Shown piece after piece: positions 12,872 through 63,117 of a stretch of DNA of 64,000 nt. Both the position numbers and the translations under genes were made by a program. A model generated the notes under the pieces. That model was not told where the DNA came from, ran no database searches, and saw only the letters and a list, made by a program, of their open reading frames with translations. Numbering within the stretch: position 1 is the stretch's first letter; every line of letters starts with the position of its first letter. The DNA lies in assembly GCA_018806915.1 (NCBI GenBank), contig JAGKQI010000079.1, positions 481,001-545,000 on the forward strand. The letters are read 5' to 3'. The DNA comes from Phytophthora colocasiae. Taxonomy: Eukaryota > Oomycota > Peronosporomycetes > Peronosporales > Peronosporaceae.

Positions 12872-14233
12872 ATGGTGGCCACCGCGATGCACGGCACTCC
12901 TACAGAAAGGCAACACAACGACCATCACTCTGTATTCCGCACTCCGTCAAGCATGCCAAGACTAAGCGAGAGGCAGCAGTTCATCGTCGAGATCATCGAC
13001 TTCCTGGCGATCCTGATTCTGGAGGAGGACGACGACGAAGATATTGGCTTTTGTGTGCTAAAGGATGGCGGGATGGACCTCGCCATGGGCACTCCTGCCG
13101 AAGAGCTTGCCGAGTTGCTCCAGTTGGTCACCCATAATCGATATCTCGTCCCACGAGAGCGAATCTCCTTAAGCTCTGACTTTGCCTACAACGTGTTTCC
13201 TCGGCTTTCTGATGAGGACTTCAAGCAGCAGACCAGGACCACGCGCAGCACCTTCTGCAAAATTCTTACAGCAATTCAAGGGCACACCATATTCAGCAAC
13301 GCCAGCCAGAACCCTCAAGCTCCTGTCTGGCTTCAACTGGCCGTCGCGCTTGACCGGCTTGGGACCAACGGTAATGGGGCATCTCTTGGTCGCTCAAGAA
13401 AACTATGGGGACTTGGAAAGGGGACGGTTCCTCTTTATACAGCCCGCGTCATTATCGCTCTTAATGATCTCCGTGACGAGTTCGTAGCATGGCCAGATTC
13501 AGCAGAAAGAAGACGAATCTCACGCCGCATGGAACACGAGGGCTTTCCAGGTTGTGTTGGGTTTATTGATGGGACCACAATCCCGTTGGCACAGAAGCCT
13601 GCTGTGGATGGAGAGTGCTATTTTGACCGCAAGCACAGGTACAGCGTGAACGCTCAAGTCGTGTGTGATGATCGCCGCCGGATCATTGCGTTTTACAGTG
13701 GGTGGCCTGGATCGTGCGGTGACAGTGCTGTCTATCATGAGATGCGGCTTGCAACTGACGCAGACAAACGGCGTTTTTTCGACTGCAACCAATATCTGGT
13801 GGCTGACTCCGCATACCCTGCTGACTTAACACACCACACAATCATCCCAGCGTACAAGACGAGCCATCTTGGAAACGAGAAAGAGGAATTTAACAAGTGT
13901 GTTGCTCATGTGCGTGTGGTGAACGAGCATACTATTGGCGTTTTGAAGGGGAGGTGGTCGTCCCTGCGTGAGCTGCGAGTGCAAATACGAACAAGCGAGG
14001 ACATGAATCGAATATTGCTGTGGCTTACAGCCTGCGTTGTTCTTCACAACATGTCGCTCTTATTTGGTGATGGTTGGCCTAGCGACGAAGAATGCCCTGA
14101 CACTTACAGCGATTCAGACGAACCAGCTAGCGACAGCGATGATGAGGACCCGTATGCATTTCGCCGGCACATTAAGGCAAAGGCAATCGCTCGTGGGCGT
14201 GCTCGTGGTGGAATTTTGTGCCAGGACAACTAG
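12872..14233 (+). CDS. PIF/Harbinger transposase (DDE_Tnp_4 type), intact
   Basis: 453 codons without interruption. The DDE nuclease domain is clear: GCVGFIDGTTIPLA with D233, YLVADSAYP with D312 and VVNEHTIGVLKGRW with E352, all in the spacing and context of Harbinger transposases. An N-terminal helical region (about 30-200) probably corresponds to the helix-turn-helix part. The C-terminus is acidic (SDSDEPASDSDDEDP, about 415-430) and ends with a basic stretch. Harbinger transposition normally needs this nuclease plus a second Myb/SANT-like DNA-binding protein. No SANT gene lies beside it; the convergent neighbour is a PX-domain protein. The intact frame suggests recent activity or domestication. 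The start codon lies just inside the proposed terminal repeat, which fits an element-borne gene. Confidence 0.9.
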   Translation: MVATAMHGTPTERQHNDHHSVFRTPSSMPRLSERQQFIVEIIDFLAILILEEDDDEDIGFCVLKDGGMDLAMGTPAEELAELLQLVTHNRYLVPRERISLSSDFAYNVFPRLSDEDFKQQTRTTRSTFCKILTAIQGHTIFSNASQNPQAPVWLQLAVALDRLGTNGNGASLGRSRKLWGLGKGTVPLYTARVIIALNDLRDEFVAWPDSAERRRISRRMEHEGFPGCVGFIDGTTIPLAQKPAVDGECYFDRKHRYSVNAQVVCDDRRRIIAFYSGWPGSCGDSAVYHEMRLATDADKRRFFDCNQYLVADSAYPADLTHHTIIPAYKTSHLGNEKEEFNKCVAHVRVVNEHTIGVLKGRWSSLRELRVQIRTSEDMNRILLWLTACVVLHNMSLLFGDGWPSDEECPDTYSDSDEPASDSDDEDPYAFRRHIKAKAIARGRARGGILCQDN

Positions 14234-14422: not shown

Positions 14423-15604
14423 CTAAACCCCGCCTTCGTAAAGCTGCATCAACATCTTGATCTCGTCAGAACTTTTCTGAGCAGCCACCAACGACATAAA
14501 CATCTCGTGACGACGCGAAGCTCGGCGCTCTTCCACTTCGCGGGTACGCAGCTGTTGCTCAAAGCGTTGCTGCTCTTTGTTAGACTTTTGCTGCTCCTCC
14601 CACATTCTTTCGTCGAGCGCCAGTTTGCTCTGCATATATTTGATCTTGTCCTCTCCATTTTTTGCGTATGCCACGGACAGGGACGCTCTGCTTTCGTGGG
14701 CAGTCATTTTCTTAGGTTTCTTGCTTTCAAAATCCGAGCTGTCAGAGCTTGATCGTTTCTTTTTCTTTTGAGCCTTGGTTTTGCGGGTGTTAGAGTCACT
14801 AGGGTGGCGTTTTTGTTTCGACGACTTCGACGATGGCTCACCGAGTCGTGAAGAGCATTTGTCGATCGAAGAAGTCGGACATTGTGAAGCGGTTGGATGG
14901 CTTGGCTTCGACAGCGTCGTGTCGGTCGACGGCGACGGATATGAAGGCGTTTCAATTACCGCTGGATCTCGGATCAGCTGCCTCGGGCGCATAGCGACCA
15001 TACTCGGTGACAGTGAGCGGTCTTTAGAAGTGGTACGGAGCAACGCGAGTTCGGAGACAGAGGGTAGCTCATCATCGTCTGCTGCTAAACGAGGAAGCGT
15101 AAGTGGGAGACATTTACCACCTTCGCTGCCATCCCACTCAGGCGACAGCTCATCATCTTCGTCTTCTTCGTCTCCTAACAGACCCTGTGTAGTCTCCAAT
15201 AGAAAACGCATGTAGCTATCGAGCTCCTCCATCCGCGTAGCATCTACACGCTTCTTGCTGAAGCCCAGACCAGACTTGAAGATGTGGCGGTCTGGGAACT
15301 GCACAGTGCCGTAGAAGCTCTCGAGTTCTTCGCAGGCACCACAACTCAGATGTTTCTTACTGCCGCTGCTACTGAATTGATGCTGCAACGCATCATGAAG
15401 CGCACGAAACTCGGAGTAACGCTTGGCCACATACCAATCGGCATTGCCACTGCGACTCACGCGCAACACATACAGGGTGGGGCGGCGGTGCGACTGGTTC
15501 TCGCGGCCGTACGAGATGATCTTGGCTGTCACGGGGCGTAGTGAACGCGTCTGGAAGGTGGACGAGCAGCGGCTGCCGGACTTTTCAGCTTCGGAGGGCG
15601 TCAT
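14423..15604 (-). CDS. PX-domain protein with charged coiled-coil C-terminus
   Basis: 393 residues. Residues about 24-145 match a phox (PX) phosphoinositide-binding domain: TAKIISYGR..., VLRVSRSG.ADWYVAKRYSEFRALHDAL, then FPDRHIFKSGLG and a final RMEELDSYMRFLLE helix. PX domains dock proteins on endosomal membranes. The middle is Ser/Pro-rich and low in complexity. Residues about 265-300 hold a Lys-rich, nuclear-signal-like tract (TRKTKAQKKKKRSSS), and the end is a long charged helix (KIKYMQSKLALDERMWEEQQKS..., SSDEIKMLMQLYEGG). That tail looks like the C-terminal helix of transposon-associated SANT/Myb proteins, an impression not backed by a search. The gene converges with the Harbinger transposase (stops 189 bp apart). 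It could be a host gene or the second gene of the element with a swapped N-terminus. Confidence 0.75.
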   Translation of the reverse strand: MTPSEAEKSGSRCSSTFQTRSLRPVTAKIISYGRENQSHRRPTLYVLRVSRSGNADWYVAKRYSEFRALHDALQHQFSSSGSKKHLSCGACEELESFYGTVQFPDRHIFKSGLGFSKKRVDATRMEELDSYMRFLLETTQGLLGDEEDEDDELSPEWDGSEGGKCLPLTLPRLAADDDELPSVSELALLRTTSKDRSLSPSMVAMRPRQLIRDPAVIETPSYPSPSTDTTLSKPSHPTASQCPTSSIDKCSSRLGEPSSKSSKQKRHPSDSNTRKTKAQKKKKRSSSDSSDFESKKPKKMTAHESRASLSVAYAKNGEDKIKYMQSKLALDERMWEEQQKSNKEQQRFEQQLRTREVEERRASRRHEMFMSLVAAQKSSDEIKMLMQLYEGGV

Positions 15605-16429
15605 TCACGTACTGAGCTGCCGAATTAATAAAAAAAAACGGTGTTCGTAATGCTAATCACTTGCCGACTTGAGCGACTCTTGAGAAATGAAGATGTTGAG
15701 CTGCGGCTGACATGGAGGGAGGAGCCGGACCGCTGATGCATGCCTCATCACCATGGTGTGCACAGAAAGGATGGTTACAGATGTATCTATATAATTGATG
15801 CCGGGTGGTGTAGTTGTCCTGGTAGTTTTTCATTAATCATTTAAGGACGGATGAGTTAGGATTATTTTAGTCTGTCTATACTGTACGGTGAATCGCTATC
15901 GGTGAAAAGTTACGGTGGCTGCATCAACTTGATGGTGAACTTGGAGCTGCTTCAAGCAGCCTTTCAACGGCTCTTGGTGCTTTGTTGCACTGCAGCAGCA
16001 AGTCGCTGCCAACAAAGGAAGGATTACTTCGCGCAGTTCATGTACTTCGGTGGCGAATTGGGTGCCTTCCAAAATCCACACCAGAAGTTTGGTGGGCATC
16101 CGTTCGAATGCACGTTTTATCTACTATCTGCTAAATCTCGACCCGCCAAAAGCGACCTAAACGTCCGTACATGTAACCTACTTCAGTGATTAACGATTTT
16201 TTCATATCCGGGCTTGATCAGCAGGCTTATCAACAGAATGCGGGAAACACACAGATATAAGGTTACGCACACAGAATATGTGACAGCACATAAAGCATGC
16301 GTGGTGCACACCAACATGAAGTAATGCCACACGAATAAAATTCTTGCCACACTGCAATACGGAGCGTCACACCAAATCTGGGTGGCAGAACACCACCCAT
16401 TATCAGCGAATCAAGTTCCGAAACACAAG
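15605..16429. other. Intergenic between PX gene and second MULE
   Basis: No supported gene. A minus-strand frame at 15896-16099 is short and has no recognised motif. It should hold the divergent promoters of the PX gene (minus) and the MULE transposase (plus), and the left end of the MULE. I could not define a TIR. Confidence 0.4.
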
Positions 16430-16445
16430 TCATTTCTACCAATTA
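16430..16445 (+). promoter_or_regulatory. Inr-like core promoter of MULE transposase 2
   Basis: TCATTTCTACCAATTA matches the oomycete initiator pattern (TCATTYYNCAWTTT with two extra bases). It lies about 100 bp upstream of the ATG at 16544, which favours that start over the in-frame upstream codon at 16382. Confidence 0.5.
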
Positions 16446-16543
16446 AAGCGAAGCAAATACCCTATGAGCTCTTGACATATTCGAAACAAGACCTCTCTGC
16501 GCAGACCAAGACGCCCCCCCCTCTTCATCCAACTCCCCTCAAG

Positions 16544-18415
16544 ATGCCTCCTACCTACACGTGGAAAACGGTGTGCAGCGATATGGCTCGTGAGGATGCC
16601 CAGCTCCTTGTTGAGGACTTGAAGTTCTTCATCATCGTGAAGAGCCAGCTGGTTCCATGTGTTGTGTGCGCCCTGACACGGCCGCATAAGATGCGATACC
16701 AGTTGCTGAAGTGTTCGTCGGAAACTTGCAAGGCCACGACGCCGTATGACGCTTGCCCGTGGACTGGCAAGATTCTCACTTGCCAAGAGCTGAATCGAGT
16801 AACCGTGATGGAGCACGGAACTCATGAAACGTCCGTCCGAGATCCACGCAAGCCCCAGCTGACACCACGCCTGAAGGACTACGGTCGTGAAATGGCTACC
16901 GTTGGGTTGAAGCCAGCTCGAATCCACATGGGAATGAGTCGACGTTTCGGATTAACGGAGGACGAAATGCCGACCTTACGTCAAGTACAGTGGTTCGTCG
17001 GAAACTTTACGAAGAAGAAGTTGCGCCGTACGGACGACTATGACGACATCCTCGATCAAGTTGGCAAGTTGGAATTTGGGTCATCGACAACGGATACGCA
17101 ACCATTTTCGTTTGGCTGGGCACGTGACAGCGACGTAAAACCAGATGTGGGTGACGGCTCTGACGAAAACCCTTTCCTGATCGGTTTGACGACCAAGTGT
17201 CTGTTACGCAACGCCGCTCGGGACCCGACCTCGTTCGTATTCCACATGGATGGAACCTTCAAGTTAAACCAAGTGGGATATCCTGTCGTCGTGTGTGGCA
17301 TCTCGGATCGCGGTAGATCTTTTCACCTTGTGGCTCTCTTCATCACGTCTCAACGCCTTGAAAGCCTGTACGTGAAGGCGCTTTTGGCTCTTCGCAAGAT
17401 GTTCACTGTGATTACCAGCCAGCAACTGTCACTGAAATATGTGATGGCAGATGCTGAGGCTGGCCAACTGAATGCCGTTACCCAAGTATTTGGCATGGAC
17501 TCCGACCTGACCTATTTGATGTGCTTCTATCACGTAATGGCCAAGGTACATGAGAGGCTCAAAGGTGTTCCGGTTTCGTTGCGGGAGCAGGTGGTTACTG
17601 ACATTTACGACCTTCATTTCTCCTCAAGCCAAAGTGTCTATGACGAAATGGTACAAACAGTACTTGCCAAATGGTCAGGCGAGGATCAGTTGTTGGTGTT
17701 TCGAAGCTACTTTGAGGCCATTTGGATGACCAGTTCGTTCCACCGCTGGCAATGCTTCCACACACCAGGTGGATATGCGACGACCAACAATCCCGTTGAG
17801 CAGTTCAATCGTCTGATCAAGCGAGACTACACGCTCCGCACGAAACACAAGATCGGAACGTTGATCCGTTTGCTGGCCGACTGCTGTGGACACCAGTCGG
17901 TTAGTACCCGACCGTTCAAGGAAGCTCCTCAAGCCACACAGCAATTAAAGGCTCGTGTAAAAGACTTTCGCCTCCGCGGCTTGCTCCAAGACATGACTCC
18001 GACCCGGTCGAGCATTGAGTTCTTGCTCGTATCCCCAAACCCGGATATGGTGCGTGTGCTGTCACGCGGATGTCATCGCGTGTTCTTACCGGAATTGGGT
18101 CGAACTCGCGAAGTAGCTCCTATTTCGGCACAGATGGGAGCAAACTATGCGCGGAGGGAAGTTGAAGGCCAACCAAAAGGTGGTTGGTATGTGGATGTTC
18201 GGCGCCTAAGCTGCGGATGCAAGTATAACTTCAAGTTTGCCATTTGCATCCACGTGGTTTTCGCTTTGCAAGTCAAGTACTACACTGGCTTGGACGGCAA
18301 GCGAACACTTGTCAACCGTTCTGTTTCGCATAGAAAACGGAAGACTCCTGCGGACACGACCCGCGTTCCACCGGGGCGTCCTCGATCGAACGGACACGCA
18401 TTAAACCGAGAATAA
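16544..18415 (+). CDS. MULE transposase 2, intact
   Basis: From the ATG at 16544 (MPPTYTWKTV) the product is 623 residues; the frame is open back to 16382, but the Inr-like element at 16430 supports the shorter form. It has an N-terminal zinc-binding part (CVVCALTRPHKMRYQLLKCS...C), the catalytic core FHMDGTFKLN (first Asp, codon at 17249), VMADAEAGQLNAV (second Asp, 17450), CFYHVMAKVHERL (C/H motif) and NNPVEQFNRLIKRD (Glu, 17798), and a C-terminal SWIM finger (LSCGCKYNFKFAICIHVVFA), then a basic tail. This is a complete MULE transposase, which would bind TIRs and move the element by cut and paste. It differs from the decayed MULE transposase at 10713 and has no introns. A chromodomain gene follows 94 bp downstream on the same strand. 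Confidence 0.9.
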   Translation: MPPTYTWKTVCSDMAREDAQLLVEDLKFFIIVKSQLVPCVVCALTRPHKMRYQLLKCSSETCKATTPYDACPWTGKILTCQELNRVTVMEHGTHETSVRDPRKPQLTPRLKDYGREMATVGLKPARIHMGMSRRFGLTEDEMPTLRQVQWFVGNFTKKKLRRTDDYDDILDQVGKLEFGSSTTDTQPFSFGWARDSDVKPDVGDGSDENPFLIGLTTKCLLRNAARDPTSFVFHMDGTFKLNQVGYPVVVCGISDRGRSFHLVALFITSQRLESLYVKALLALRKMFTVITSQQLSLKYVMADAEAGQLNAVTQVFGMDSDLTYLMCFYHVMAKVHERLKGVPVSLREQVVTDIYDLHFSSSQSVYDEMVQTVLAKWSGEDQLLVFRSYFEAIWMTSSFHRWQCFHTPGGYATTNNPVEQFNRLIKRDYTLRTKHKIGTLIRLLADCCGHQSVSTRPFKEAPQATQQLKARVKDFRLRGLLQDMTPTRSSIEFLLVSPNPDMVRVLSRGCHRVFLPELGRTREVAPISAQMGANYARREVEGQPKGGWYVDVRRLSCGCKYNFKFAICIHVVFALQVKYYTGLDGKRTLVNRSVSHRKRKTPADTTRVPPGRPRSNGHALNRE

Positions 18416-26733: not shown

Positions 26734-28400
26734 TGTCGCGAAGTCGGTGAAACTTTGGTCGCGGAGCAGGGGGGCGTATAGTGAACCCTAGTTATACGAC
26801 TACCGAAAAAGGGTTTTTTCAGAGCCGTACAACGGTAGGTTGGCGTGTGGTACCTTGCGGTATCCTCGTGGGTTCGTTGTCTTCGGAAATATGACCCTCG
26901 CCGGAGTCTGAGAATGTGTTGTGAAGAGAGGTTGGGGTTCCCTTGGAGTCTGGTGTCGGTATTCAGGAAAATCCTTCCAGGAGCGTTCGGGAGTCGGAAT
27001 CTCTGGAAACCAAAGTGTTTTCCAGGAAGTCGGCGGTCGAAAAGAGGTTAATATACCAGAGAAAAGTCGGAATTCGGTGTCTGAATATCACAAATCCAGA
27101 ACCGAGATACCTGACTTTCAGAGATAAACAACCAATATACAGAGTTCGAAAATATACAAATATATACAGCCGTTCTTATTCTTTCTAGGCCCTTGAACGG
27201 TGGGCTAACACTCCAGGTCAACTAGGGACTTACTACCAGACACCTGGTCTGTCTGGTATCCCTTTACGTTCGCGCACCACCCTCTAATATAGAGGGAAAA
27301 TATAAACCAATACAATCGGCTATATATAACAGTCTACCTTGCACTCTGAAAACGACTGTCTAGTTTCCAGAGCCTGTCCAAACGATCAATATGAAATGGG
27401 CTACCGCTAGAGACAAAACAAACGACCCAACTAGGATATGGAATAGGCGGGTCCTTTCAGGTCTCTACGTTACCTGATCTCCACCTAAGGGGATTGAATT
27501 TGGTGGAGATCACACGACGTACGTGATGACGTAGTGGCTTGAATACCTCTCAAGCGGACTTGTGCAGTAGCAAGCAAATTGAACTCTGTTTATCGTTTAT
27601 CTTCCTCATAACTATCATATATCTCTGGTAACTCTCTTCTTCTTGTCGTCTTTTGCGTCCTTTATGCAGTCAGTCGTCATATCTCAGGTACTCTTGGTCT
27701 TTGTATACATCTGGTACTTTAACTTGGTCTCAGTATGCAGTCTGTGCAGCCGATCTCGATGGGTTGACAGGTAGAGACGTCATTACGGGGATGTGCAGGT
27801 CAGTAATCACTTGAATGCGTGACTTGAACTTGGGTTCACTTGGTTTCAGTATGGTCTTGAATCTTCGGTGGTTTCAGAGTCTGATATCACTTGGTTTTCA
27901 GAGTCTTAGTCACTCAGAGTTAGAGATACCAGAGTTTTGAGTAAGTAACCAGAGTACGGAGCACCAATGCTACAACGTACACGAAGATCTTGGGGGTTGC
28001 GCGGGTGCGCGGCGTCCAGCGTGCGATACTTGGTCTCTGCGGGTATATGTTGTGAATCCTTGAACCATCCATCGTCGCGCTGGACGGTAACGGGATGAGG
28101 TCTCTCAGAGATACGTTCTTCTGAGAGACTTTCCGCCAGAACTTAGGCACTCATCGTCAGGAAAGTCCGGTGACCAGACAGAGTGTAGTTGACCTTCAGA
28201 GTTGTGCACACTCTGAAGTACACTTCTGGTCCTTTGGGCCCCTTTACAGTCAGGCGAAGGTTTATCCACAATCTTCCACAGATGTCGCACGGGTGCGGCC
28301 GCGTCCCAAAGTCCCTTTCGCTTATAACCCATAGTATAACCAATCACATCGTAACGTAATATCCACCTGTCGCTCGAAAATCGGAATTAACATCATGTCA
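26734..28400 (-). repeat. LTR 1 (3' LTR of copy 1)
   Basis: In element orientation it starts TGACATGATG and ends CTTCGCGACA, the TG...CA form. It is 1667 bp and nearly identical to LTR2 and LTR3. It is dense in the words CAGAGT, TCAGAG and TTTTCAGAG. Small reading frames in it (for example 27920-28150) are not supported as genes. Confidence 0.92.
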
Positions 28401-28412
28401 ACCGCCCCTCCT
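28401..28412 (-). other. Polypurine tract candidate, copy 1
   Basis: AGGAGGGGCGGT on the minus strand directly abuts the 3' LTR, as needed to prime plus-strand synthesis. Copy 2 has the same at 43864-43875. Confidence 0.65.
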
Positions 28413-28613
28413 GGTCACGATCCATCAGTGCGGAACTTTCTCCAAGCTGTGTATCATGGCCAGGCCTATCAAACATTCTGATAGACGGTTTTCAGAGCGT
28501 AGCGTAGCTGCAACTCTTTGTCAGTTACCTGGTTTTCAGAGTCTCTGGTGTCCCGTCGCACAATCTGATTCTCTCAGACTCAGAAACTTGAATTTGACTT
28601 GCCAAACAGGCGA

Positions 28614-28626
28614 TCATTTTCAAAAC
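28614..28626 (+). promoter_or_regulatory. Inr-like element of the antisense gene, copy 1
   Basis: TCATTTTCAAAAC resembles the oomycete initiator. It lies 16 bp upstream of the ATG at 28642, about the same arrangement as the chromodomain gene at 18510. The same element is at 44077-44089 in copy 2. Confidence 0.5.
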
Positions 28627-28641
28627 TCCGTCCTTTCGCTC

Positions 28642-31600
28642 ATGACTGAGGAAACGAACGCTTCTCTGAGCTTAAACGCCCCACCGAATGGGGCGGCAGG
28701 CGACGCCACAGGCACTTGTCCTGCTTCGGCAACTGCCAATATGTCGCAGGGTGGAGATGTTGGTTCGGCCACATCGCCAGGTGGCAGCCCTAGCGCCCCA
28801 GCCCATGCATCCCAACCTACCGACTCACAGGTCGATGGTCCGACTGAGGATCTTCCTGGTGATGACATGAACTCGGCCGGTGTTGGTGATCTCGCCACCA
28901 GTGGTTTCACGTGGGAATCTCACTCTGAATTCTCTGAGGGAACTCCTGGTGTCTTCAGACCGCGAGCCTTTGGTGCCCCACGGCTTTTGTCTACGGAAGA
29001 GGTCGATCGGCTGTTTCGTCAGGGTCTGGTGACAACCACAGGGGATCAAGTCACGGCGTTGGGGGACTCTGATGTTCCCCAGAACTATATCGCTCCCAGC
29101 GTGAAGCCAGAGGGACGTGCCTTTCTGGTGAGTACCCCCGCGCGAGCTGAAGACTTCAGAAGAGGGCGCCACATAGCGAATGCGTACGGTGGCCCCTGTG
29201 TGCTCGTGGGTTACGAGGCACTTACTGATGAAGACCTCCGGGAGCTGGAGCGAGTGATTCCAAGCTTCGACCCCACCGAAGTTGTGTCTCCGTGCGCCCA
29301 GACTCCAGACGTGCGTACTCTGGATGCTTTGACGTCGTCTGTGGATGTTCGCCGGGAACTGGGGTCTCTGGTTTCTCATGTCTCTCCCACTCGGCTTGCC
29401 GAGAAAGTTTTTCGGACGGCCGGATGCTTAAAGCTTATGACTGCTGCTCACCGTCGCCTTCGGGAACGCGTTGGTTCTCAGAACGGTGTCGCCTTGATTG
29501 ATGCTGCAGCAGCGCGCTCTGAATGCGAAGAAATCAAGCGTGAGTGGGTACTGCACTGTCAATACTGGAAACACGAGCTTAAGTGTGCCCAGCAAGACGC
29601 CGGTGCGGTAGAAGAACGCATGACTTCGGAGATTCAGGATCTCAAAGCTCACTACCAGGACCAAGTGGAAGCTCTGAAGTCGGACAAGGCAGTTCTGAAG
29701 TCCCAAGTCGCTGATCTTCAAGCACAGGTCTCGATTCTGAAGTCGCGTCCTGAGGTCATGCCCACAGATCCGTGGGGTTCTCAGAGTTCTTACAAGAGAA
29801 TTCTGAAATCTCTGGTAATTGGGATCGGCTCCATGACCTTCTGGTGTCATACCAAGAGGACACCATCGTCCCTGATAACTGGACGACTATCATCAGCGTG
29901 ACAGCCTTGGACGCGCGAAAGAAACCCGTTCCTGACTTCAAGAAACGGCTTTCTGAGGAACGAGCTCGTCAGGCTGCTGAGAAGACCGCGAGGACCTCCA
30001 GAGTTCTGGATCTTACTCATCCAAGTACTGAAACCTCAGAGTCCAAGAGCGAGAGCCCACGGTACCTGTCATATCCGCCGAAGCCCCAGACTCTGAAAAC
30101 ACCTCCGAAGCGACCGCTCAAGTGGGACTCCAAGAATTTGCAGCGTCGCCCGTCCGGACACAAGCCCGTTGAAGAATCGGCGCTTCCGGCGAATGCAGAT
30201 TCTAAGGTGGCAAAGTCTGAGGTCCACAAGAGACTCCTGGTGACGTGGTCTGGAAGGAAGTTCGACCCGACCTCCGCCAAGCCCTGCTATCTGGGATCAA
30301 GTATGATAAAGCCATGGAGTGGTTGGCATCGGATAAAGCGGCTCACAGTCTCTTCAGCAGTCCGGCTCTCATTCAGATGTTGGTGAGCCTGGTATTCTCT
30401 CGTCGCCTGGATGCTACTCTTTGGGCCAAGTACGTCCCTGAAGTGTATTACCAGATGGCCGACGAGGTGGTGGATCGTCACATCTCAGCTGGTACCGAGC
30501 CTGCAGCCTGGGGTGATCTGGATGGTCACGTAAATTATCCAGAAAGTGATGTCGAGTCCACCGCCGACAACCCCAAGGACGATCCGGATTACAAGGATTC
30601 TGGTGTGATCGAGTCTGAAGACGAAGATGACGACGAGAGCTCTGATGATGGTGAGTCTGACGACAGCGATTCCGAGAGCGACAAGTCTGAAGACAAGAAG
30701 TCTCAGGACCAGAAGTCGGGGAGCAAGAAGTCTGGGAGCAAGAAGTCTGGGGACAAGAGGTCCGGGAGCAAGAAGTCCGATGACCACCCGCGTCCTGGCT
30801 CTAAGCGTCCCCGGGACTCTGATGACAACTCGGACTCTGATTATGGGCCTATCATCCCTACCAAGAAGTCCAAGAGAAGCCTTGCGTCCATAAAAGCCCA
30901 TACCAGTCCCAAGTCCCGTCCGAAGTCCACCAGTGGAAGTGGATCGAAGCCCAAGAGTTCTTCTGGGAAGGCACGTAGTCTGGTATCCAAGCCCTACAAT
31001 TCTCTGACGGTCAAGGAGCTCCAGGTGGTGGAAACACCAGACTGTGAAGCATCCTCCTGGTTGTACTATGGTATCAGGGTACAACGAGTGAGCTCTACCA
31101 AGACCACCACTGGCCAGACATTGGGTTTTCCAGACTACGAGGTGCACAAGCACTCATGTGCCATCCTCAAGAAGCGCTGGGACTCTGAGCGGTACTGTGC
31201 AGTCCTCCGCAAGAAGCGTGCCCCTTGGAAAGTCATGTTCGACAACCGATTCTCAGAGTTTTACTTCCACAAGCGGGAAGAACTGGGGCCCATGGTGTTG
31301 GCTGACGTGGAAGACATCGTGCGCAGCATGAAGAAGCATGCTCAAGCCTTCTGGGAGCGTACGCATTGGGTGACCATGGATGTTGAGGCTGACGAAAAGT
31401 CTGCGGAGCTTCACAAGTACCGGTCCATGCGTCGAGCCGCCATGATTCGTCAGCACAACGCCCTCATCCGAAAGGTCCTGGGGCACAAAGATTTCCCAGA
31501 GTCGCTGCTTTCAGAGCCTGGCATCTGGGTTGTCCCAGACAAGTCCTGCCCTTGGATCTGGCAAGATCCCAGAGTCGCAGAGCTGGGGGGTCCCAAGTGT

Positions 31601-31771
31601 CTGAGTCTGGAGACGCAACTGGGTGACTTGGACGCTATTGAGCCTGCTCGGATGCAATGTGCCACGGTGAATGCGGACGAAGAGTGGCTCCAGTATGTCC
31701 CTGCTGACATCAAGAAGGATCAATTGACACCTGCGGAGCGTTCCGAGAACCCGATCTCCCTTCACTACTGA
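28642..31771 (+). pseudogene. Antisense gene of the gypsy element, copy 1 (two frameshifts)
   Basis: A plus-strand gene of about 1040 codons, opposite to gag-pol, between integrase and the 3' LTR. In order: a Ser/Ala/Pro-rich start (MTEETNASLSLNAPPNGAAG); a moderately conserved-looking part (STEEVDRLFRQGLVTTTGDQ, then FRRGRHIANAYGGPCVLVGY); a coiled coil (29520-29750, HYQDQVEALKSDKAVLKSQV); an acidic Ser-rich tract with KKSGSKKSG repeats and a basic nuclear-signal-like run (PTKKSKRS); and a ~240-residue C-terminal domain rich in Trp and charged residues (EASSWLYYGIRVQRVSS, SRWRD-like pairs). The frame is open to about 29777, where one G is missing relative to copy 2, and a C is missing near 30237. 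The frame stays open upstream to 28456, but the Inr-like element favours 28642. No known domain recognised; antisense ORFs in this position are known in plant Tat/Ogre-type elements. Confidence 0.75.
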
Positions 31772-32177: not shown

Positions 32178-33585
32178 TCAACCATGCATCGCTTGAAAAC
32201 GGGCTCGTGCTCGTGCACTCTGATTGAATTCGTAAAGTAATGCTCCACAATTCAACTTCGATAACGGCAACCACTCAGTTTCATCGTAACCTTTCCACTT
32301 AATCAAATATTCGCGTAGGCGTCTGGACGTCCTGGTACGCTTGTTCCAACGGGTATCCAGAATCTTCTCCACTTCATACTCGCCGTTTTCAGTATCAGGT
32401 TCCCAACTATCTTCTGGTAACAGGGCGGCGTCAAAATCATCATCTTCTGAAATCTGGAGTTCCGCCGTGGGTCGTCTGGGGAACAGAGCCCTTGGCTTCA
32501 GACGGCTCACATGGACCCAGGGGTTCACGCGGTAGCCGGTATCTTCAACCTTGAGTCGTACTCTGAAATCGTCCAGCATCTCCTCGATCCTGAAGGGTCC
32601 GTGCCACATGTGTGCTAGTTTCCTGCTCAATCCCGTTTGTACCTTAGGGATGTAGAGCCATACAGCGTCGCCTATAGCGAAACCTGACTTCAGACGCTCT
32701 GACAACTCGTTCCATGTCCTGGTCTGTTCTTCCAGACCGGTCACGCTTTGCCTTCTTCTGGAGATCTTCGGCACATGCCAGAGCATAGCTATAGTCTCGT
32801 TGCATCTTCCGTCTCCATTCGTACGCAGTTCGCTCCTGAGTCGTCGATGGCTTGGGTCCAAGCATAGCGGACACCGTCCCATTAGCATCCCAACCATGTA
32901 CCAGGTAGAAAGGCGTTTCCAGACGGGTGGCATCGAATGATGTGTTCAGGGCAAACATCAGACGTTCGGCGTGATCATCCCAGTCACTTTGATCAGCTTC
33001 AGAGATATATGCCTTAATCGCGCGCACCACAGTCTGTACTGATCTCTCTTGCTGGCCGTTGGCTTGAGGCCGATACCCTAGAGTAGCTCGTTGTCTGCTA
33101 CCCAAGAGTTCCCTGAAACACTTGAACACCTCACTCATAAAGCGGGGATCTTGATCATGACGAATCAGAGAGCTAGCACCAAAGTTTCTGAAAACGCGTT
33201 CCTCATAAGCCTCTGCTACATCCTGAGCAGTGGTGACACTCATTGGCTTGCACATCACGTATCCTGAAAACATATCCTGGAACAGCAAAAGAAACGTGTT
33301 TCCACGTGCGGATTTCGGCATGTGGGTCACAAAATCCATAGACACCACTTCAAATGACCGGCTGGGCTCAATATTTCCAGGGGACGGTCCAGGATTTGGG
33401 GGTCGCCCCTTGCCACTGGCACAGTCTACGCATTCCTTCACAAATCTCTCCACATCGGCATACATACCCAACCAGTAAAACTCCGAACTCAGCTTCTCAA
33501 AGGTTCTCCTGATTCCTTGATGTCCACCTTGGTAGTCTTCATGAGCATAGTGTAACAGGTCTGGATACAAGTCTCTGGGAACCAC
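32178..33585 (-). pseudogene. Integrase and chromodomain, copy 1 (frameshifted)
   Basis: Two overlapping frames. 32644-33585 has an HHCC zinc-binding part (H..H then CVDCASGKG) and the DDE core (VSMDFVTHMP, LIRHDQDPRF, ANGQQERSVQ). 32178-32933 has the C-terminal part (GDAVWLYIPKVQ...) and a chromodomain (YEVEKILDTRWNK..., YLIKWKGYDETEWLP). A one-base shift near 32735 separates them; copy 2 is intact at that point. Integrase inserts the cDNA; the chromodomain places the element among chromovirus-like gypsy elements, which use it to target chromatin. The last residues differ from copy 2 because of a cluster of substitutions at about 32168-32192. Confidence 0.88.
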
Positions 33586-34835
33586 CAGTCTGAGTTCGTC
33601 AACATTGTCCAGGGCCGTTCTCGAGTAGCGCGACTCAGGCGATACAGTACATCTCTAGAATCCAGAACGAAGTCCTCAGCAACTCTGGCAAGCTTCCTGA
33701 CTCGGGGTCGTGGTAAATCTCCCACGTCACCTTTCAGAAACTTCATGAGTTCAACCAAGTACGGGTCCTGACTCTGATGCGCCTTGATCCGTCGCCAGCG
33801 TTCTGCCTGGAACTCCAAAGGTCCCAAAGGTTCTCGTTCGCCATCACCCTCAGGCAGATTAGCGTCAGGCGGAGCTTGGGCACGGGTTACAGCAATCAAC
33901 ACTCTGGCCGATCGAGGTAGGGGTGCGGATTCCGGATCAAAAACATTCTCAGACTCTGGTGACGCATTACGTTCTTCAGAGTCTGATATTTTTGACTCTT
34001 GAGCTTCCAGGTCCGGGGCAGAGCAAGGCTTCATCAGTTTCTCATGAACTTTGGATACCAGTTGCAGGTGCATGAGTTCATCCTCGTCCTGCACCTGCCA
34101 AGCTTCCCCAAGAGTCAAAGTCTTCGAGGTCAGGTAATCCGCTGCTTGGTTAAACTCGCGCTTCACATGCACCAACTTCAGAGTCCGAAACTTGGTTTTC
34201 AGAGACTCAAATTCGGCCAACCTCCGTTGCAAGTTAGGCTGATTGCAGTTGATCAGTCCCTGAGCCTGTTGTATCGCGATGCGCGAATCTCCCACAACCA
34301 CCAACTCCTGTATTCCGTAGTCGAGTGCCATCTTCAGACCGTAATTCAGGCCACAGTATTCCGAGTCATTCACCGTGACATCCGTCAGGGGAAACCCTCG
34401 GGCTTCCAGAACACTCCACCCCGGGAGTTCCCAGAGTATACACCCACAGCTTCCCAGACGGGTAGACGTCTTTGCGGCACCATCAAAACTCAGAACATAG
34501 CCCTGATAATCTGCTTCCAGCATTTCCACACTGATAGGAACTGGCGGCTTGACTCGCCCCTTGACTGGGATCAGATTTTCAGAGACTTCGTCCAGATGCT
34601 CCCTGGGGGTAATGCCCGCACCGAGTATAGCTGGGAGTCCATCTTCGTCACGCTGTACCCGGCGGATCTCCAGGTTCCACTGCGACAATTTCATACCCCA
34701 CTTGACGTTTCTGCCGTCGGTGGAGTTCGATGTCAGCAACCATTTCAGGACAGAGTATCTGGTATAGACCACAATCACCGGACTTGATTCCACCAGAGCT
34801 CTGAAGTTTTCCAAGACTCTGAGGATCGCAATCAC
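33489..34835 (-). CDS. Second RNase H (archaeal-like type) to integrase N-terminus, copy 1
   Basis: Contains the C-terminal part of the first RNase H (VVYTRYSVLKWLL), then a complete second RNase H with the four acidic positions: LSFDGAAKTS (D), NDSEYCGLNYGLKM (E), LVVVGDSRIAIQQ (D) and FNQAADYLTS (D). It continues through a linker to the zinc-binding region of integrase. It is part of the pol polyprotein, not a separate gene; it is separated from the RT frame by a small indel at about 34850. The frame shifts again near 33610, where copy 1 reads TMLTNSDWW in place of the copy 2 RDNVDELRLVV. Confidence 0.85.
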   Translation of the reverse strand: MIAILRVLENFRALVESSPVIVVYTRYSVLKWLLTSNSTDGRNVKWGMKLSQWNLEIRRVQRDEDGLPAILGAGITPREHLDEVSENLIPVKGRVKPPVPISVEMLEADYQGYVLSFDGAAKTSTRLGSCGCILWELPGWSVLEARGFPLTDVTVNDSEYCGLNYGLKMALDYGIQELVVVGDSRIAIQQAQGLINCNQPNLQRRLAEFESLKTKFRTLKLVHVKREFNQAADYLTSKTLTLGEAWQVQDEDELMHLQLVSKVHEKLMKPCSAPDLEAQESKISDSEERNASPESENVFDPESAPLPRSARVLIAVTRAQAPPDANLPEGDGEREPLGPLEFQAERWRRIKAHQSQDPYLVELMKFLKGDVGDLPRPRVRKLARVAEDFVLDSRDVLYRLSRATRERPWTMLTNSDWWFPETCIQTCYTMLMKTTKVDIKESGEPLRS

Positions 34836-42201: not shown

Positions 42202-43863
42202 TGTCGCGAAGTCGGTGAAACTTTGGTCGCGGAGCAGGGGCGTATAGTGAACCCTAGTTATACGACTACCGAAAAGGGTTTTTCAGAGCCGTACAACGGT
42301 AGGTTGGCGTGTGGTACCTTGCGGTATCCTCGTGGGTTCGTTGTCTTCGGAAATATGACCCTCGCCGGAGTCTGAGAATGTGTTGTGAAGAGAGGTTGGG
42401 GTTCCCTTGGAGTCTGGTGTCGGTATTCAGGAAAATCCTTCCAGGAGCGTTCGGGAGTCGGAATCTCTGGAAACCAAAGTGTTTTCCAGGAAGTCGGCAG
42501 TCGAAAAGAGGTTAATATACCAGAAAAGTCGGAATTCGGTGTCTGAATATCACAAATCCAGAACCGAGATACCTGACTTTCAGAGATAAACAACCAATAT
42601 ACAGAGTTCGAAAATATACAAATATATACAGCCGTTCTTATTCTTTCTAGGCCCTTGAACGGTGGGCTAACACTCCAGGTCAACTAGGGACTTACTACCA
42701 GACACCTGGTCTGTCTGGTATCCCTTTACGTTCGCGCACCACCCTCTAATATAGAGGGAAAATATAAACCAATACAATCGGCTATATATAACAGTCTACC
42801 TTGCACTCTGAAAACGACTGTCTAGTTTCCAGAGCCTGTCCAAACGATCAATATGAAATGGGCTACCGCTAGAGACAAAACAAACGACCCAACTAGGATA
42901 TGGAATAGGCGGGTCCTTTCAGGTCTCTACGTTACCTGATCTCCACCTAAGGGGATTGAATTTGGTGGAGATCACACGACGTACGTGATGACGTAGTGGC
43001 TTGAATACCTCTCAAGCGGACTTGTGCAGTAGCAAGCAAATTGAACTCTGTTTATCGTTTATCTTCCTCATAACTATCATATATCTCTGGTAACTCTCTT
43101 CTTCTTGTCGTCTTTTGCGTCCTTTATGCAGTCAGTCGTCATATCTCAGGTACTCTTGGTCTTTGTATACATCTGGTACTTTAACTTGGTCTCAGTATGC
43201 AGTCTGTGCAGCCGATCTCGATGGGTTGACAGGTAGAGACGTCATTACGGGGATGTGCAGGTCAGTAATCACTTGAATGCGTGACTTGAACTTGGGTTCA
43301 CTTGGTTTCAGTATGGTCTTGAATCTTCGGTGGTTTCAGAGTCTGATATCACTTGGTTTTCAGAGTCTTAGTCACTCAGAGTTAGAGATACCAGAGTTTT
43401 GAGTAAGTAACCAGAGTACGGAGCACCAATGCTACAACGTACACGAAGATCTTGGGGGTTGCGCGGGTGCGCGGCGTCCAGCGTGCGATACTTGGTCTCT
43501 GCGGGTATATGTTGTGAATCCTTGAACCATCCATCGTCGCGCTGGACGGTAACGGGATGAGGTCTCTCAGAGATACGTTCTTCTGAGAGACTTTCCGCCA
43601 GAACTTAGGCACTCATCGTCGGGGAAAGTCCGGTGACCAGACAGAGTGTAGTTGACCTTCAGAGTTGTGCACACTCTGAAGTACACTTCTGGTCCTTTGG
43701 GCCCCTTTACAGTCAGGCGAAGGTTTATCCACAATCTTCCACAGATGTCGCACGGGTGCGGCCGCGTCCCAAAGTCCCTTTCGCTTATAACCCATAGTAT
43801 AACCAATCACATCGTAACGTAATATCCACCTGTCGCTCGAAAATCGGAATTAACATCATGTCA
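42202..43863 (-). repeat. LTR 2 (shared: 5' LTR of copy 1 and 3' LTR of copy 2)
   Basis: 1662 bp, same ends as LTR1. Differences from LTR1 are mainly homopolymer length (for example aaaagg against aaaaagg near 42272) and gtcgggg for gtcagg near 43620, which it shares with LTR3. Confidence 0.92.
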
Positions 43864-43875: not shown

Positions 43876-44076
43876 GGTCACGATCCATCAGTGCGGAACT
43901 TTCTCCAAGCTGTGTATCATGGCCAGGCCTATCAAACATTCTGATAGACGGTTTTCAGAGCGTAGCGTAGCTGCAACTCTTTGTCAGTTACCTGGTTTTC
44001 AGAGTCTCTGGTGTCCCGTCGCACAATCTGATTCTCTCAGACTCAGAAACTTGAATTTGACTTGCCAAACAGGCGA

Positions 44077-44089
44077 TCATTTTCAAAAC
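44077..44089 (+). promoter_or_regulatory. Inr-like element of the antisense gene, copy 2
   Basis: TCATTTTCAAAAC, as in copy 1, 15 bp upstream of the ATG at 44105. Confidence 0.5.
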
Positions 44090-44104
44090 TCCGTCCTTTC
44101 GCTC

Positions 44105-47100
44105 ATGACTGAGGAAACGAACGCTTCTCTGAGCTTAAACGCCCCACCGAATGGGGCGGCAGGCGACGCCACAGGCACTTGTCCTGCTTCGGCAACTGCC
44201 AATATGTCGCAGGGTGGAGATGTTGGTTCGGCCACATCGCCAGGTGGCAGCCCTAGCGCCCCAGCCCATGCATCCCAACCTACCGACTCACAGGTCGATG
44301 GTCCGACTGAGGATCTCCCTGGTGATGACATGAACTCGGCCGGTGTTGGTGATCTCTCGCCACCAGTGGTTTCACGTGGGAATCTCACTCTGAATTCTCT
44401 GAGGGAACTCCTGGTGTCTTCAGACCGCGAGCCTTTGGTGCCCCACGGCTTTTGTCTACGGAAGAGGTCGATCGGCTGTTTCGTCAGGGTCTGGTGACAA
44501 CCACAGGGGATCAAGTCACGGCGTTAGGGGACTCTGATGTTCCCCAGAACTATATCGCTCCCAGCGTGAAGCCAGAGGGACGTGCCTTTCTGGTGAGTAC
44601 CCCCGCGCGAGCTGAAGACTTCAGAAGAGGGCGCCACATAGCGAATGCGTACGGTGGCCCCTGTGTGCTCGTGGGTTACGAGGCACTTACTGATGAAGAC
44701 CTCCGGGAGCTGGAGCGAGTGATTCCAAGCTTCGACCCCACCGAAGTTGTGTCTCCGTGCGCCCAGACTCCAGACGTGCGTACTCTGGATGCTTTGACGT
44801 CGTCTGTGGATGTTCGCCGGGAACTGGGGTCTCTGGTTTCTCATGTCTCTCCCACTCGGCTTGCCGAGAAAGTTTCGGACGGCCGGATGCTTAAAGCTTA
44901 TGACTGCTGCTCACCGTCGCCTTCGGGAACGCGTTGGTTCTCAGAACGGTGTCGCCTTGATTGATGCTGCAGCAGCGCGCTCTGAATGCGAAGAAATCAA
45001 GCGTGAGTGGGTACTGCACTGTCAATACTGGAAACACGAGCTTAAGTGTGCCCAGCAAGACGCCGGTGCGGTAGAAGAACGCATGACTTCGGAGATTCAG
45101 GATCTCAAAGCTCACTACCAGGACCAAGTGGAAGCTCTGAAGTCGGACAAGGCAGTTCTGAAGTCCCAAGTCGCTGATCTTCAAGCACAGGTCTCGATTC
45201 TGAAGTCGCGTCCTGAGGTCATGCCCACAGATCCGTGGGGGTTCTCAGAGTTCTTACAAGAGAATTCTGAAATCTCTGGTAATTGGGATCGGCTCCATGA
45301 CCTTCTGGTGTCATACCAAGAGGACACCATCGTCCCTGATAACTGGACGACTATCATCAGCGTGACAGCCTTGGACGCGCGAAAGAAACCCGTTCCTGAC
45401 TTCAAGAAACGGCTTTCTGAGGAACAGGCTCGTCAGGCTGCTGAGAAGACCGCGAGGACCTCCAGAGTTCTGGATCTTACTCATCCAAGTACTGAAACCT
45501 CAGAGTCCAAGAGCGAGAGCCCACGGTACCTGTCATATCCGCCGAAGCCCCAGACTCTGAAAACACCTCCGAAGCGACCGCTCAAGTGGGACTCCAAGAA
45601 TTTGCAGCGTCGCCCGTCCGGACACAAGCCCGTTGAAGAATCGGCGCTTCCGGCGAATACAGATTCTAAGGTGGCAAAGTCTGAGGTCCACAAGAGACTC
45701 CCTGGTGACGTGGTCTGGAAGGAAGTTCGACCCGACCTCCGCCAAGCCCTGCTATCTGGGATCAAGTATGATAAAGCCATGGAGTGGTTGGCATCGGATA
45801 AAGCGGCTCACAGTCTCTTCAGCAGTCCGGCTCTCATTCAGATGTTGGTGAGCCTGGTATTCTCTCGTCGCCTGGATGCTACTCTTTGGGCCAAGTACGT
45901 CCCTGAAGTGTATTACCAGATGGCCGACGAGGTGGTGGATCGTCACATCTCAGCTGGTACCGAGCCTGCAGCCTGGGGTGATCTGGATGGTCACGTAAAT
46001 TATCCAGAAAGTGATGTCGAGTCCACCGCCGACAACCCCAAGGACGATCCGGATTACAAGGATTCTGGTGTGATCGAGTCTGAAGACGAAGATGACGACG
46101 AGAGCTCTGATGATGGTGAGTCTGACGACAGCGATTCCGAGAGCGACAAGTCTGAAGACAAGAAGTCTCAGGACCAGAAGTCGGGGAGCAAGAAGTCTGG
46201 GAGCAAGAAGTCTGGGGACAAGAGGTCCGGGAGCAAGAAGTCCGATGACCACCCGCGTCCTGGCTCTAAGCGTCCCCGGGACTCTGATGACAACTCGGAC
46301 TCTGATTATGGGCCTATCATCCCAACCAAGAAGTCCAAGAGAAGCCTTGCGTCCATAAAAGCCCATACCAGTCCCAAGTCCCGTCCGAAGTCCACCAGTG
46401 GAAGTGGATCGAAGCCCAAGAGTTCTTCTGGGAAGGCACGTAGTCTGGTATCCAAGCCCTACAATTCTCTGACGGTCAAGGAGCTCCAGGTGGTGGAAAC
46501 ACCAGACTGTGAAGCATCCTCCTGGTTGTACTATGGTATCAGGGTACAACGAGTGAGCTCTACCAAGACCACCACTGGCCAGACATTGGGTTTTCCAGAC
46601 TACGAGGTGCACAAGCACTCATGTGCCATCCTCAAGAAGCGCTGGGACTCTGAGCGGTACTGTGCAGTCCTCCGCAAGAAGCGTGCCCCTTGGAAAGTCA
46701 TGTTCGACAACCGATTCTCAGAGTTTTACTTCCACAAGCGGGAAGAACTGGGGCCCATGGTGTTGGCTGACGTGGAAGACATCGTGCGCAGCATGAAGAA
46801 GCATGCTCAAGCCTTCTGGGAGCGTACGCATTGGGTGACCATGGATGTTGAGGCTGACGAAAAGTCTGCGGAGCTTCACAAGTACCGGTCCATGCGTCGA
46901 GCCGCCATGATTCGTCAGCACAACGCCCTCATCCGAAAGGTCCTGGGGCACAAAGATTTCCCAGAGTCGCTGCTTTCAGAGCCTGGCATCTGGGTTGTCC
47001 CAGACAAGTCCTGCCCTTGGATCTGGCAAGATCCCAGAGTCGCAGAGCTGGGGGGTCCCAAGTGTCTGAGTCTGGAGACGCAACTGGGTGACTTGGACGC

Positions 47101-47236
47101 TATTGAGCCTGCTCGGATGCAATGGGCCACGGTGAATGCGGACGAAGAGTGGCTCCAGTATGTCCCTGCTGACATCAAGAAGGATCAATTGACACCTGCG
47201 GAGCGTTCCGAGAACCCGATCTCCCTTCACTACTGA
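44105..47236 (+). pseudogene. Antisense gene of the gypsy element, copy 2 (frameshifted near the start)
   Basis: Same gene as at 28642-31771. The N-terminal part breaks near 44354 (two extra bases) and near 44874 (two T missing), both intact in copy 1. From 44810 it has one uninterrupted frame of 808 codons to 47236, including the coiled coil, the acidic/KKSG tract (about 424-500 of this frame), the basic run near 506 and the whole C-terminal domain (from about 553). The long open frame, the conserved start signal and reciprocal intactness of the copies argue for a real protein. Location and function unknown; the basic tract suggests the nucleus, and the coiled coil suggests oligomerisation. 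Confidence 0.78.
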
Positions 47237-57664: not shown

Positions 57665-59332
57665 TGTCGCGAAGTCGGTGAAACTTTGGTCGCGGAGCAG
57701 GGGGCGTATAGTGAACCCTAGTTATACGACTACCGAAAAAGGGTTTTTTCAGAGCCGTACAACGGTAGGTTGGCGTGTGGTACCTTGCGGTATCCTCGTG
57801 GGTTCGTTGTCTTCGGAAATATGACCCTCGCCGGAGTCTGAGAATGTGTTGTGAAGAGAGGTTGGGGTTCCCTTGGAGTCTGGTGTCGGTATTCAGGAAA
57901 ATCCTTCCAGGAGCGTTCGGGAGTCGGAATCTCTGGAAACCAAAGTGTTTTCCAGGAAGTCGGCGGTCGAAAAGAGGTTAATATACCAGAGAAAAGTCGG
58001 AATTCGGTGTCTGAATATCACAAATCCAGAACCGAGATACCTGACTTTCAGAGATAAACAACCAATATACAGAGTTCGAAAATATACAAATATATACAGC
58101 CGTTCTTATTCTTTCTAGGCCCTTGAACGGTGGGCTAACACTCCAGGTCAACTAGGGACTTACTACCAGACACCTGGTCTGTCTGGTATCCCTTTACGTT
58201 CGCGCACCACCCTCTAATATAGAGGGAAAATATAAACCAATACAATCGGCTATATATAACAGTCTACCTTGCACTCTGAAAACGACTGTCTAGTTTCCAG
58301 AGCCTGTCCAAACGATCAATATGAAATGGGCTACCGCTAGAGACAAAACAAACGACCCAACTAGGATATGGAATAGGCGGGTCCTTTCAGGTCTCTACGT
58401 TACCTGATCTCCACCTAAGGGGATTGAATTTGGTGGAGATCACACGACGTACGTGATGACGTAGTGGCTTGAATACCTCTCAAGCGGACTTGTGCAGTAG
58501 CAAGCAAATTGAACTCTGTTTATCGTTTATCTTCCTCATAACTATCATATATCTCTGGTAACTCTCTTCTTCTTGTCGTCTTTTGCGTCCTTTATGCAGT
58601 CAGTCGTCATATCTCAGGTACTCTTGGTCTTTGTATACATCTGGTACTTTAACTTGGTCTCAGTATGCAGTCTGTGCAGCCGATCTCGATGGGTTGACAG
58701 GTAGAGACGTCATTACGGGGGATGTGCAGGTCAGTAATCACTTGAATGCGTGACTTGAACTTGGGTTCACTTGGTTTCAGTATGGTCTTGAATCTTCGGT
58801 GGTTTCAGAGTCTGATATCACTTGGTTTTCAGAGTCTTAGTCACTCAGAGTTAGAGATACCAGAGTTTTGAGTAAGTAACCAGAGTACGGAGCACCAATG
58901 CTACAACGTACACGAAGATCTTGGGGGTTGCGCGGGTGCGCGGCGTCCAGCGTGCGATACTTGGTCTCTGCGGGTATATGTTGTGAATCCTTGAACCATC
59001 CATCGTCGCGCTGGACGGTAACGGGATGAGGTCTCTCAGAGATGTGTTCTTCTGAGAGACTTTCCGCCAGAACTTAGGCACTCATCGTCGGGGAAAGTCC
59101 GGTGACCAGACAGAGTGTAGTTGACCTTCAGAGTTGTGCACACTCTGAAGTACACTTCTGGTCCTTTGGGCCCCTTTACAGTCAGGCGAAGGTTTATCCA
59201 CAATCTTCCACAGATGTCGCACGGGTGCGGCCGCGTCCCAAAGTCCCTTTCGCTTATAACCCATAGTATAACCAATCACATCGTAACGTAATATCCACCT
59301 GTCGCTCGAAAATCGGAATTAACATCATGTCA
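57665..59332 (-). repeat. LTR 3 (5' LTR of copy 2)
   Basis: 1668 bp, TG...CA ends. Its few differences include gatgtg for gatacg near 59041 and one extra G near 58719. Confidence 0.92.
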
Positions 59333-62144: not shown

Positions 62145-62306
<162 letters not shown>

Positions 62307-62586
62307 TGCTGTTGGTTTTCTTTTCTGACGGTGCGTGTGGGATGTAAGGGAACGAGGCAGGGTGGGTGATCACCGGAGAGAATGGGAGTTGGTATTGTGG
62401 TGTTGAAAGAGGCGGGTAGGCGGTAGCCGTGTGTCTGTCGAAGTGAAGTACGCCATGAGCGTGGAGCATGTGATAGCAGGTGGGTTGGGTGTGCATGGTA
62501 GCGCTGGTTGTAGGTATAGTGTGTGTGTGTGTTGTGGAGAGCGGGAAAGCGGTCTTGAAAGTGTGGGTTAGGTGTTCACTTTTGCT

Positions 62587-62658
62587 GGGCGCATAGCGCA
62601 GTGGTAGCGCGTCCGCTTTGCAAGCGGAAGGCCCCGGGTTCAATCCCCGGTGTGTCCA
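62587..62658 (+). tRNA. tRNA-Ala (anticodon TGC)
   Basis: 72 nt with a full cloverleaf: acceptor GGGCGCA/TGTGTCC, D-arm GCGC AGTGGTA GCGC, anticodon arm TCCGC TTTGCAA GCGGA (TGC at 34-36), T-arm CCGGG TTCAATC CCCGG and discriminator A. The box A and box B regions are intact. No intron. Charges alanine for GCN codons. Confidence 0.92.
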
Positions 62659-63045
62659 ACTCTTTGTTCGACTCACCTCCGCTTGCAAACGACGCCTACG
62701 AACCTGCCGCCGCAATATGCCTCGCCTCACACCACACACCACATCACCGGCTTCTCGCCGCAGAACTTCGACTCATGTCTAATGATGACTTCCACTTCTT
62801 AACCTGTCTTTCTGCCGGTCTGTCTGTTGCTGTTGGTTTTCTTTTCTATGTGATCGCCGAATAGCATTATCGATCGATCGTGTTAGGTCGCGGACAGAAG
62901 GTTAAGAAGTGGAAGTCATCATTAGACATGAGTCGAAGTTCTGCGGCGAGAAGCCGGTGATGTGGTGTGTGGTGTGAGGCGAGGCATAATGCGGCGGCAG
63001 GTTCGTAGGCGTCGTTTGCAAGCGGAGGTGAGTCGAACAAAGAGT

Positions 63046-63117
63046 TGGACACACCGGGGATTGAACCCGGGGCCTTCCGCTTGCAAAGCGGACGCGCTAC
63101 CACTGCGCTATGCGCCC
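63046..63117 (-). tRNA. tRNA-Ala (anticodon TGC), inverted copy
   Basis: Identical to the copy at 62587 in reverse complement, on the right arm of the inverted repeat. Confidence 0.92.

Follow-up and report, generated by a model that had tools for sequence, protein, structure and literature searches.

An antisense gene under purifying selection beside the 3' long terminal repeat of a Ty3/gypsy retrotransposon of Phytophthora colocasiae

Can an open reading frame (ORF) that runs against gag and pol of a retrotransposon be a gene in its own right, and what would its protein do for the element? The question is raised by a stretch of 64,000 nucleotides (hereafter the window) of the 92.5-Mb genome of the oomycete Phytophthora colocasiae, in which two Ty3/gypsy elements stand in tandem at 26734-59332 with a common long terminal repeat (LTR), in the order LTR-internal-LTR-internal-LTR. 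The element is 15.5 kb long and carries gag and pol on the minus strand; the frame in question occupies, on the plus strand, the slot between the end of pol, at 32178 in its last frame, and the LTR edge at 28400. We find that this antisense frame is a protein-coding gene under purifying selection. We further propose, as the account that we favour, that it is the accessory protein gene of a Chronos-type gypsy element, the product of which would be nuclear and act in trans on element copies. The features needed to follow the argument are these:

28456..31771, plus strand: antisense gene of copy 1, ~1105 codons counted from the conserved ATG, with open pieces at 28456-29901 and 30245-31771 in a broken frame
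43919..47236, plus strand: antisense gene of copy 2, with 44810-47236 open and the frame broken upstream
26734..28400, minus strand: LTR (3' LTR of copy 1), where the antisense promoter may lie
32178..33585, minus strand: pol of copy 1, integrase and chromodomain (ORF listing, Pfam)
33489..34835, minus strand: pol of copy 1, end of the gypsy RNase H and extra RNase H (RVT_3) (ORF listing, Pfam)

Selection on the antisense frame

The original prediction, made from the sequence of the window, had placed plus-strand antisense frames opposite a minus-strand gypsy pol, and they were found as claimed, adjoining the LTR at 26734-28400. In copy 1 the two open pieces encode 481 and 508 amino acids and are linked by a shifted frame. 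The gene is long, as predicted, and its size, previously put at ~1040 codons, is more likely to be ~1105 codons counted from the ATG at 28456. The 808-codon frame announced for copy 2 (44810-47236) is indeed uninterrupted, but neither copy in the window is intact, and this frame begins in a shifted stretch, since its first ~22 residues give no block alignment with homologues.

Family copies were collected by a DNA search with the antisense gene as query (40 copies in 43 rows; 40 of 393 candidates scored), so that element copies devoid of the gene were not sought. The sample analysed comprises 28 of these 40 copies, the top 20 by score taken at 8.2 kb and the next 8 at 3.8 kb, with 12 left out. 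In a codon model, the ratio of nonsynonymous to synonymous substitution rates (omega) was 0.341 over the 28 copies, 0.350 over the 20 long copies and 0.355 over those 7 of the 28 copies in which the frame is open for 1095 codons or more, and the pol end of the same 20 long copies, used as a control, gave 0.230. Twice the log-likelihood difference from omega 1 was 166.1, 104.6, 63.3 and 202.6, respectively, figures that are approximate because the omega-1 fits used two fixed trial values of kappa. A dN/dS comparison across family copies had been named beforehand as a check on the gene, and a value of 0.34 is not near 1.

Polymorphisms were counted between the Met at 28642 and the stop codon, and those present in at least two copies are called shared. 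Shared polymorphisms fall 31/27/104 on codon positions 1/2/3 and create no new stop. Their nonsynonymous to synonymous ratio relative to expectation is 0.27; that of private changes is 0.52, with 8 stops, a higher ratio and a presence of stops that are as expected if copies decay after insertion. Shared changes gave ratios of 2.0-2.7 in both remaining plus frames and in two minus frames. The mirror minus frame also had a low ratio, 0.30, as would be seen if the antisense frame were open by chance opposite another constrained sequence. However, the third positions of the mirror frame coincide with those of the plus frame, which accounts for its low value, and shared polymorphisms give it 4 new stops but give the plus frame none. 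Moreover, no minus-strand frame listed within the gene of copy 1 exceeds 222 amino acids, and the plus frame has homologues. A chance open frame, to which we give negligible probability, is hence refuted by the homologues, the pattern of shared polymorphisms and omega.

Selection was kept through the spread of the element and across two subfamilies. A sister subfamily is present in the same genome (locus L037, G000:C75:33900-37600), with an integrase 91% identical to that of the window family. Over 774 codons the antisense proteins of the two subfamilies share 53% identity; the changes are distributed 282/231/465 by codon position, and dS is too large to compute. Between the subfamilies, the antisense gene evolves much faster than pol.

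Homologues of the protein are annotated as hypothetical proteins in P. citrophthora, P. palmivora, P. capsici, P. ramorum and P. sojae, with identities of ~32-82% when the sister subfamily is included. No relatives outside Phytophthora were among the matches listed (protein searches, each with ~7,990 candidates scored), and the Phytophthora homologues bear no precomputed Pfam domain. A protein search of the P. colocasiae genome scored 83 places, the best of 525 first-look candidates, and an integrase scan scored the best 127 of 3570 candidates. At 50 of the 83 places a scored integrase lies on the opposite strand, 1975-2654 bp (~2.4 kb) downstream of the matched stretch, and at none of them on the same strand. 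The sequences suggest that some Phytophthora 'hypothetical proteins' are element proteins. A large protein without a known retroelement domain could also come from a captured host gene that still does its host job. On the other hand, the matches listed are Phytophthora hypothetical proteins only, and the gene occurs at many places in its own genome, no search having been aimed at a single-copy host relative; we consider a host gene very improbable.

The start of the gene and the LTR edge

The gene most likely starts at the ATG at 28456 (MARP...LPGF). This choice is based on the codon-position pattern of 28456-28599, where subfamily changes fall 12/7/25 on positions 1/2/3, on the MARP starts of homologues and on the lack of a Met at 28642 in the sister subfamily, which at the same time eliminates the ATG at 28642. 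Two conserved features flank or follow the start:

28401..28455, plus strand: conserved strip between LTR edge and ATG, holding the pol-strand polypurine tract (subfamily and copy comparison)
28525..28599, plus strand: conserved N-terminal block LPGFQSLW..SDSLRLRN (subfamily changes 6/1/12 by codon position)

The annotated homologues P0027 of P. palmivora and P0030 of P. sojae start with MARP, and LPGF is also present in P0027. The annotated P. citrophthora and P. capsici models start further in, which we take as prediction choices. The ATG at 28395 was rejected, because the sister subfamily has GTG at this position and because in copy 1 the frame that it opens ends after 28 codons. An intron near 28448-28499, an idea from the sequence alone, was dropped because a single frame from 28456 is open in other copies.

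The gene had also been credited with its own start signal, an initiator-like (Inr-like) element close to the ATG, and this claim found no support. The Inr-like consensus is YCAYTYY, and its sole match within 27900-28700 lies at 28615, inside the coding frame; we take it to be the element meant by the original prediction, which gave no position. The match is kept in 28/28 family copies, the first 700 bases of the sister locus contain none, and the plus strand of the 64-kb window has 95. As the ATG at 28456 stands only 55 bases from the LTR edge, a promoter would probably be in the LTR, and the transcript would most likely start there or in the strip between LTR and ATG. Within 28400-28455, 49 of 56 positions are the same in both subfamilies, and across 20 copies 28300-28599 has 0 shared and 6 private variants; no other run of three 100-base bins in the 8.2 kb varies so little. 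This low variation is not specific to a promoter, since the polypurine tract and the integration end are also located there.

Protein features and the proposed role

The N-terminal part of the protein is of low complexity after the LPGF block. Next come a conserved stretch (residues ~165-330) and a long coiled-coil helix. The middle of the protein (LPG.VVWKEVRPDLRQAL...) is again conserved, and beyond it lie an acidic tract, a KRPR...KK tract and the C-terminal domain. Four of these features have the following positions in copy 1:

29503..29745, plus strand: coiled-coil helix, residues ~350-430 (two structure models)
30617..30802, plus strand: acidic, Ser/Lys-rich tract with 15-nucleotide tandem repeats
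30803..30874, plus strand: bipartite tract KRPR...KKSK resembling a nuclear localization signal (NLS)
31001..31771, plus strand: C-terminal domain of ~255 residues, without known family

The coiled coil, the nuclear-signal-like tract and the unplaceable C-terminal domain had all been part of the original prediction, and all three were recovered. The coiled coil appears as a long helix in both predicted models, in which the mean predicted local distance difference test score (pLDDT) is only 44 (N-terminal half, folded without alignment) and 50 (808-residue piece, with 23 sequences); in the N-terminal-half model it reaches 75-92 in blocks of residues 381-430 and ~60 in 351-380. The bipartite NLS-like tract recurs in 6 of 7 annotated homologues measured (P0001, P0009, P0017, P0027, P0030 and P0037) as KRPR followed after 14-16 residues by KK.[KR], and in P0043 its place is taken by KKSK and then KRLR. 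The acidic tract is conserved too. Profile, PDB-sequence and fold searches placed neither the C-terminal domain nor the rest of the protein: no Pfam family reaches its cut-off (three window frames, E<=1; 23 members of set A2, E<=0.01), and the best PDB sequence match has an E of 0.85 and is not significant. Weak Pfam matches (YL1, CDC45, TFIIF-alpha, HALZ, Phage_Mu_Gam and others) were set aside, being below curated cut-offs and largely on acidic or coiled-coil stretches. An env-like third ORF is ruled out by the antisense orientation and by the lack of a transmembrane-grade segment (19-residue hydropathy peaks at 1.48 among 9 sequences measured).

In the accessory role that we propose, antisense transcription would proceed from the 3' LTR edge and the protein would enter the nucleus through its bipartite NLS-like tract, associate with itself through the coiled coil and act in trans on element copies, most likely at the level of chromatin, transcription or the pre-integration complex. 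The antisense transcript may, in addition, exert control through small RNAs. The sequence makes a nuclear protein probable; an action on element transcription or integration is a serious but more tentative suggestion.

Other roles could be imagined for a constrained antisense gene. The coiled coil, the basic and acidic tracts and a strength of selection near that of pol would also suit a structural or packaging accessory, that is, a partner of the particle or of its RNA that is antisense by happenstance and has no regulatory role. Yet the conserved NLS-like tract points to the nucleus, and no gag-like domain was found among the Pfam matches of the three antisense frames at E<=1; we regard a packaging function as unlikely. 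Alternatively, the product could be the antisense RNA and not a protein, with double-stranded RNA formed with pol mRNA feeding small-RNA control. Gypsy elements of P. infestans are covered by sense and antisense small RNAs, according to passages of PMC3522703, and the convergent antisense and pol frames of copy 1 are only 406 bp apart. Constraint, however, tracks the codon pattern, which RNA function alone does not require, and an RNA product in place of a protein seems improbable.

Several observations weigh against the account that we favour. Both window copies are frame-broken relative to the sampled family copies, and 22 of the 28 copies sampled have a frameshift or stop when compared with the reference copy. 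Indels of frameshift size in the antisense gene outnumber in-frame ones (80 events versus 6 in the 28 copies), and 10 distinct indels of frameshift size are each common to at least two copies. No scored integrase is found downstream at 33 of the 83 places of the genome search, and 7 integrase matches lie within 8 kb on the upstream side. Furthermore, no promoter motif was found upstream of 28456, and Foldseek gave no match at E<=0.001, both input models being poor. The shared frameshift indels could mean that broken copies are propagated or receive help in trans, or that some of the indels are assembly errors; 10 of 31 distinct one-base indels are near homopolymers of four or more. Per kb and copy (20 copies), the antisense gene has 0.95 indels, pol 0.72 and the LTR 2.57. 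Six of the 28 copies, reference included, have no frameshift or stop relative to the reference. The genome search, made with the P. ramorum homologue, yields an open frame of at least 1040 codons at 42/83 scored places (one continuation row excluded), a share biased toward good frames because these places are the best-scoring of the 525 candidates.

Class of element and surrounding sequence

Read along the minus strand, the element contains a weak gag match (below its cut-off), protease, reverse transcriptase, gypsy RNase H, RVT_3 RNase H, integrase and a chromodomain. There are hence two RNase H domains, RT_RNaseH and then RVT_3 in Pfam terms, and we take the RVT_3 match to stand for the aRNH type. 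Inspected by eye against the usual motifs, the gypsy RNase H lacks the expected Asp, with VVIPHANPWA and VYTRYS in the respective places, and the extra RNase H keeps FDGA, NDSE, GDS and REFNQAAD. The chromodomain (PF00385, E 1.4e-8) is downstream of integrase, in 32178-32933. This is the domain set described for the oomycete Ty3/gypsy element Chronos in the main text of PMC5348765: degenerate gypsy RNase H, extra aRNH, integrase and a chromodomain at the 3' end of pol, with catalytic residues here likewise lost in the gypsy RNase H and kept in the extra one. The terms 'antisense' and 'additional ORF' do not occur in that main text, and the antisense gene adds to the description. By domain set alone, the element would be of Chronos type, and for this reason we do not file it as Tat/Ogre.

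Antisense genes are found in other retroelements as well. Grande, RIRE2 and Retand are of the Tat lineage, and HBZ of HTLV-1 is a nuclear bZIP protein with its promoter in the 3' LTR. Passages of PMC7264820 and PMC11963269 report antisense genes between pol and the 3' LTR in the plant elements Grande (gene23), RIRE2, Retand and PvRetro13, report one in this slot in Boty of Botrytis, and mention HBZ. The gene described here lies in the same slot as the plant aORF-3R genes, some of whose proteins are nuclear according to the same passages. Regarding conservation near that of other element proteins, a trait of the aORF-3R class, omega here is 0.34 versus 0.23 at the pol end, and identity between subfamilies is 53% versus 91% for integrase. 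Grande gene23 has a promoter reported upstream of the gene in the passages cited, whereas here the ATG is found 55 bases from the LTR edge; the TRP28 domain of Retand (PF04195) is absent here, in the three window frames at E<=1 and in the 23 members of A2 at E<=0.01. The brtn gene of Boty (Botrytis cinerea; Zhao 2011) is also an antisense extra gene in the retrotransposon of a filamentous plant pathogen, but in a fungal host. HBZ resembles our gene in its antisense orientation and, insofar as nuclear entry and an LTR promoter are predicted here, in its nuclear protein and 3' LTR promoter; it differs in that no bZIP match was obtained here, only sub-threshold HALZ leucine-zipper matches, and in that its virus group is unrelated. 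As to the literature view of the original prediction, the plant precedents exist and no oomycete antisense retrotransposon gene was found in the open-access literature searched (most subscription journals and preprints being outside its scope), but the element itself is not filed as Tat/Ogre.

In RNase H, convergence between Chronos and plant Tat has been described before, and the antisense gene would be a further trait common to both, which makes the purpose of such genes testable by comparison. As Tat elements also have two RNase H domains (stated in PMC5348765 and PMC10508981), one can speculate that an extra RNase H and a nuclear antisense gene by the 3' LTR arise together, independently in plant Tat, oomycete Chronos and, in part, retroviruses. 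We hold this coupling to be doubtful; if true, it would suggest that the antisense protein serves a step made necessary or possible by the dual RNase H. In any case, an oomycete protein family without recognised relatives joins the antisense genes of plant and fungal LTR retrotransposons, and its many copies in one genome (83 scored of 525 candidates) and relatives in at least five species allow tests.

Two further LTRs delimit the tandem pair:

42202..43863, minus strand: LTR common to copies 1 and 2
57665..59332, minus strand: LTR (5' LTR of copy 2)

The LTRs of the pair are 99.5-99.6% alike and the internal parts 99.5% alike over 13.8 kb. A tandem pair sharing LTRs resembles the outcome of unequal recombination at one insertion, which is a possible origin. 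The outer ends of 26734-59332 show a possible 4-base target duplication (GAAA). Elsewhere in the window, a frame with a DDE_Tnp_4 endonuclease domain (12872-14233) and another with a MULE transposase domain (16382-18415) lie on either side of a frame with a PX domain (14423-15604), possibly a host gene between transposons. At 62145-63950 there is a long inverted repeat (661 nucleotides, 98%), the arms of which hold GTCT/ACAG tetranucleotide arrays of 162 and 235 bases.

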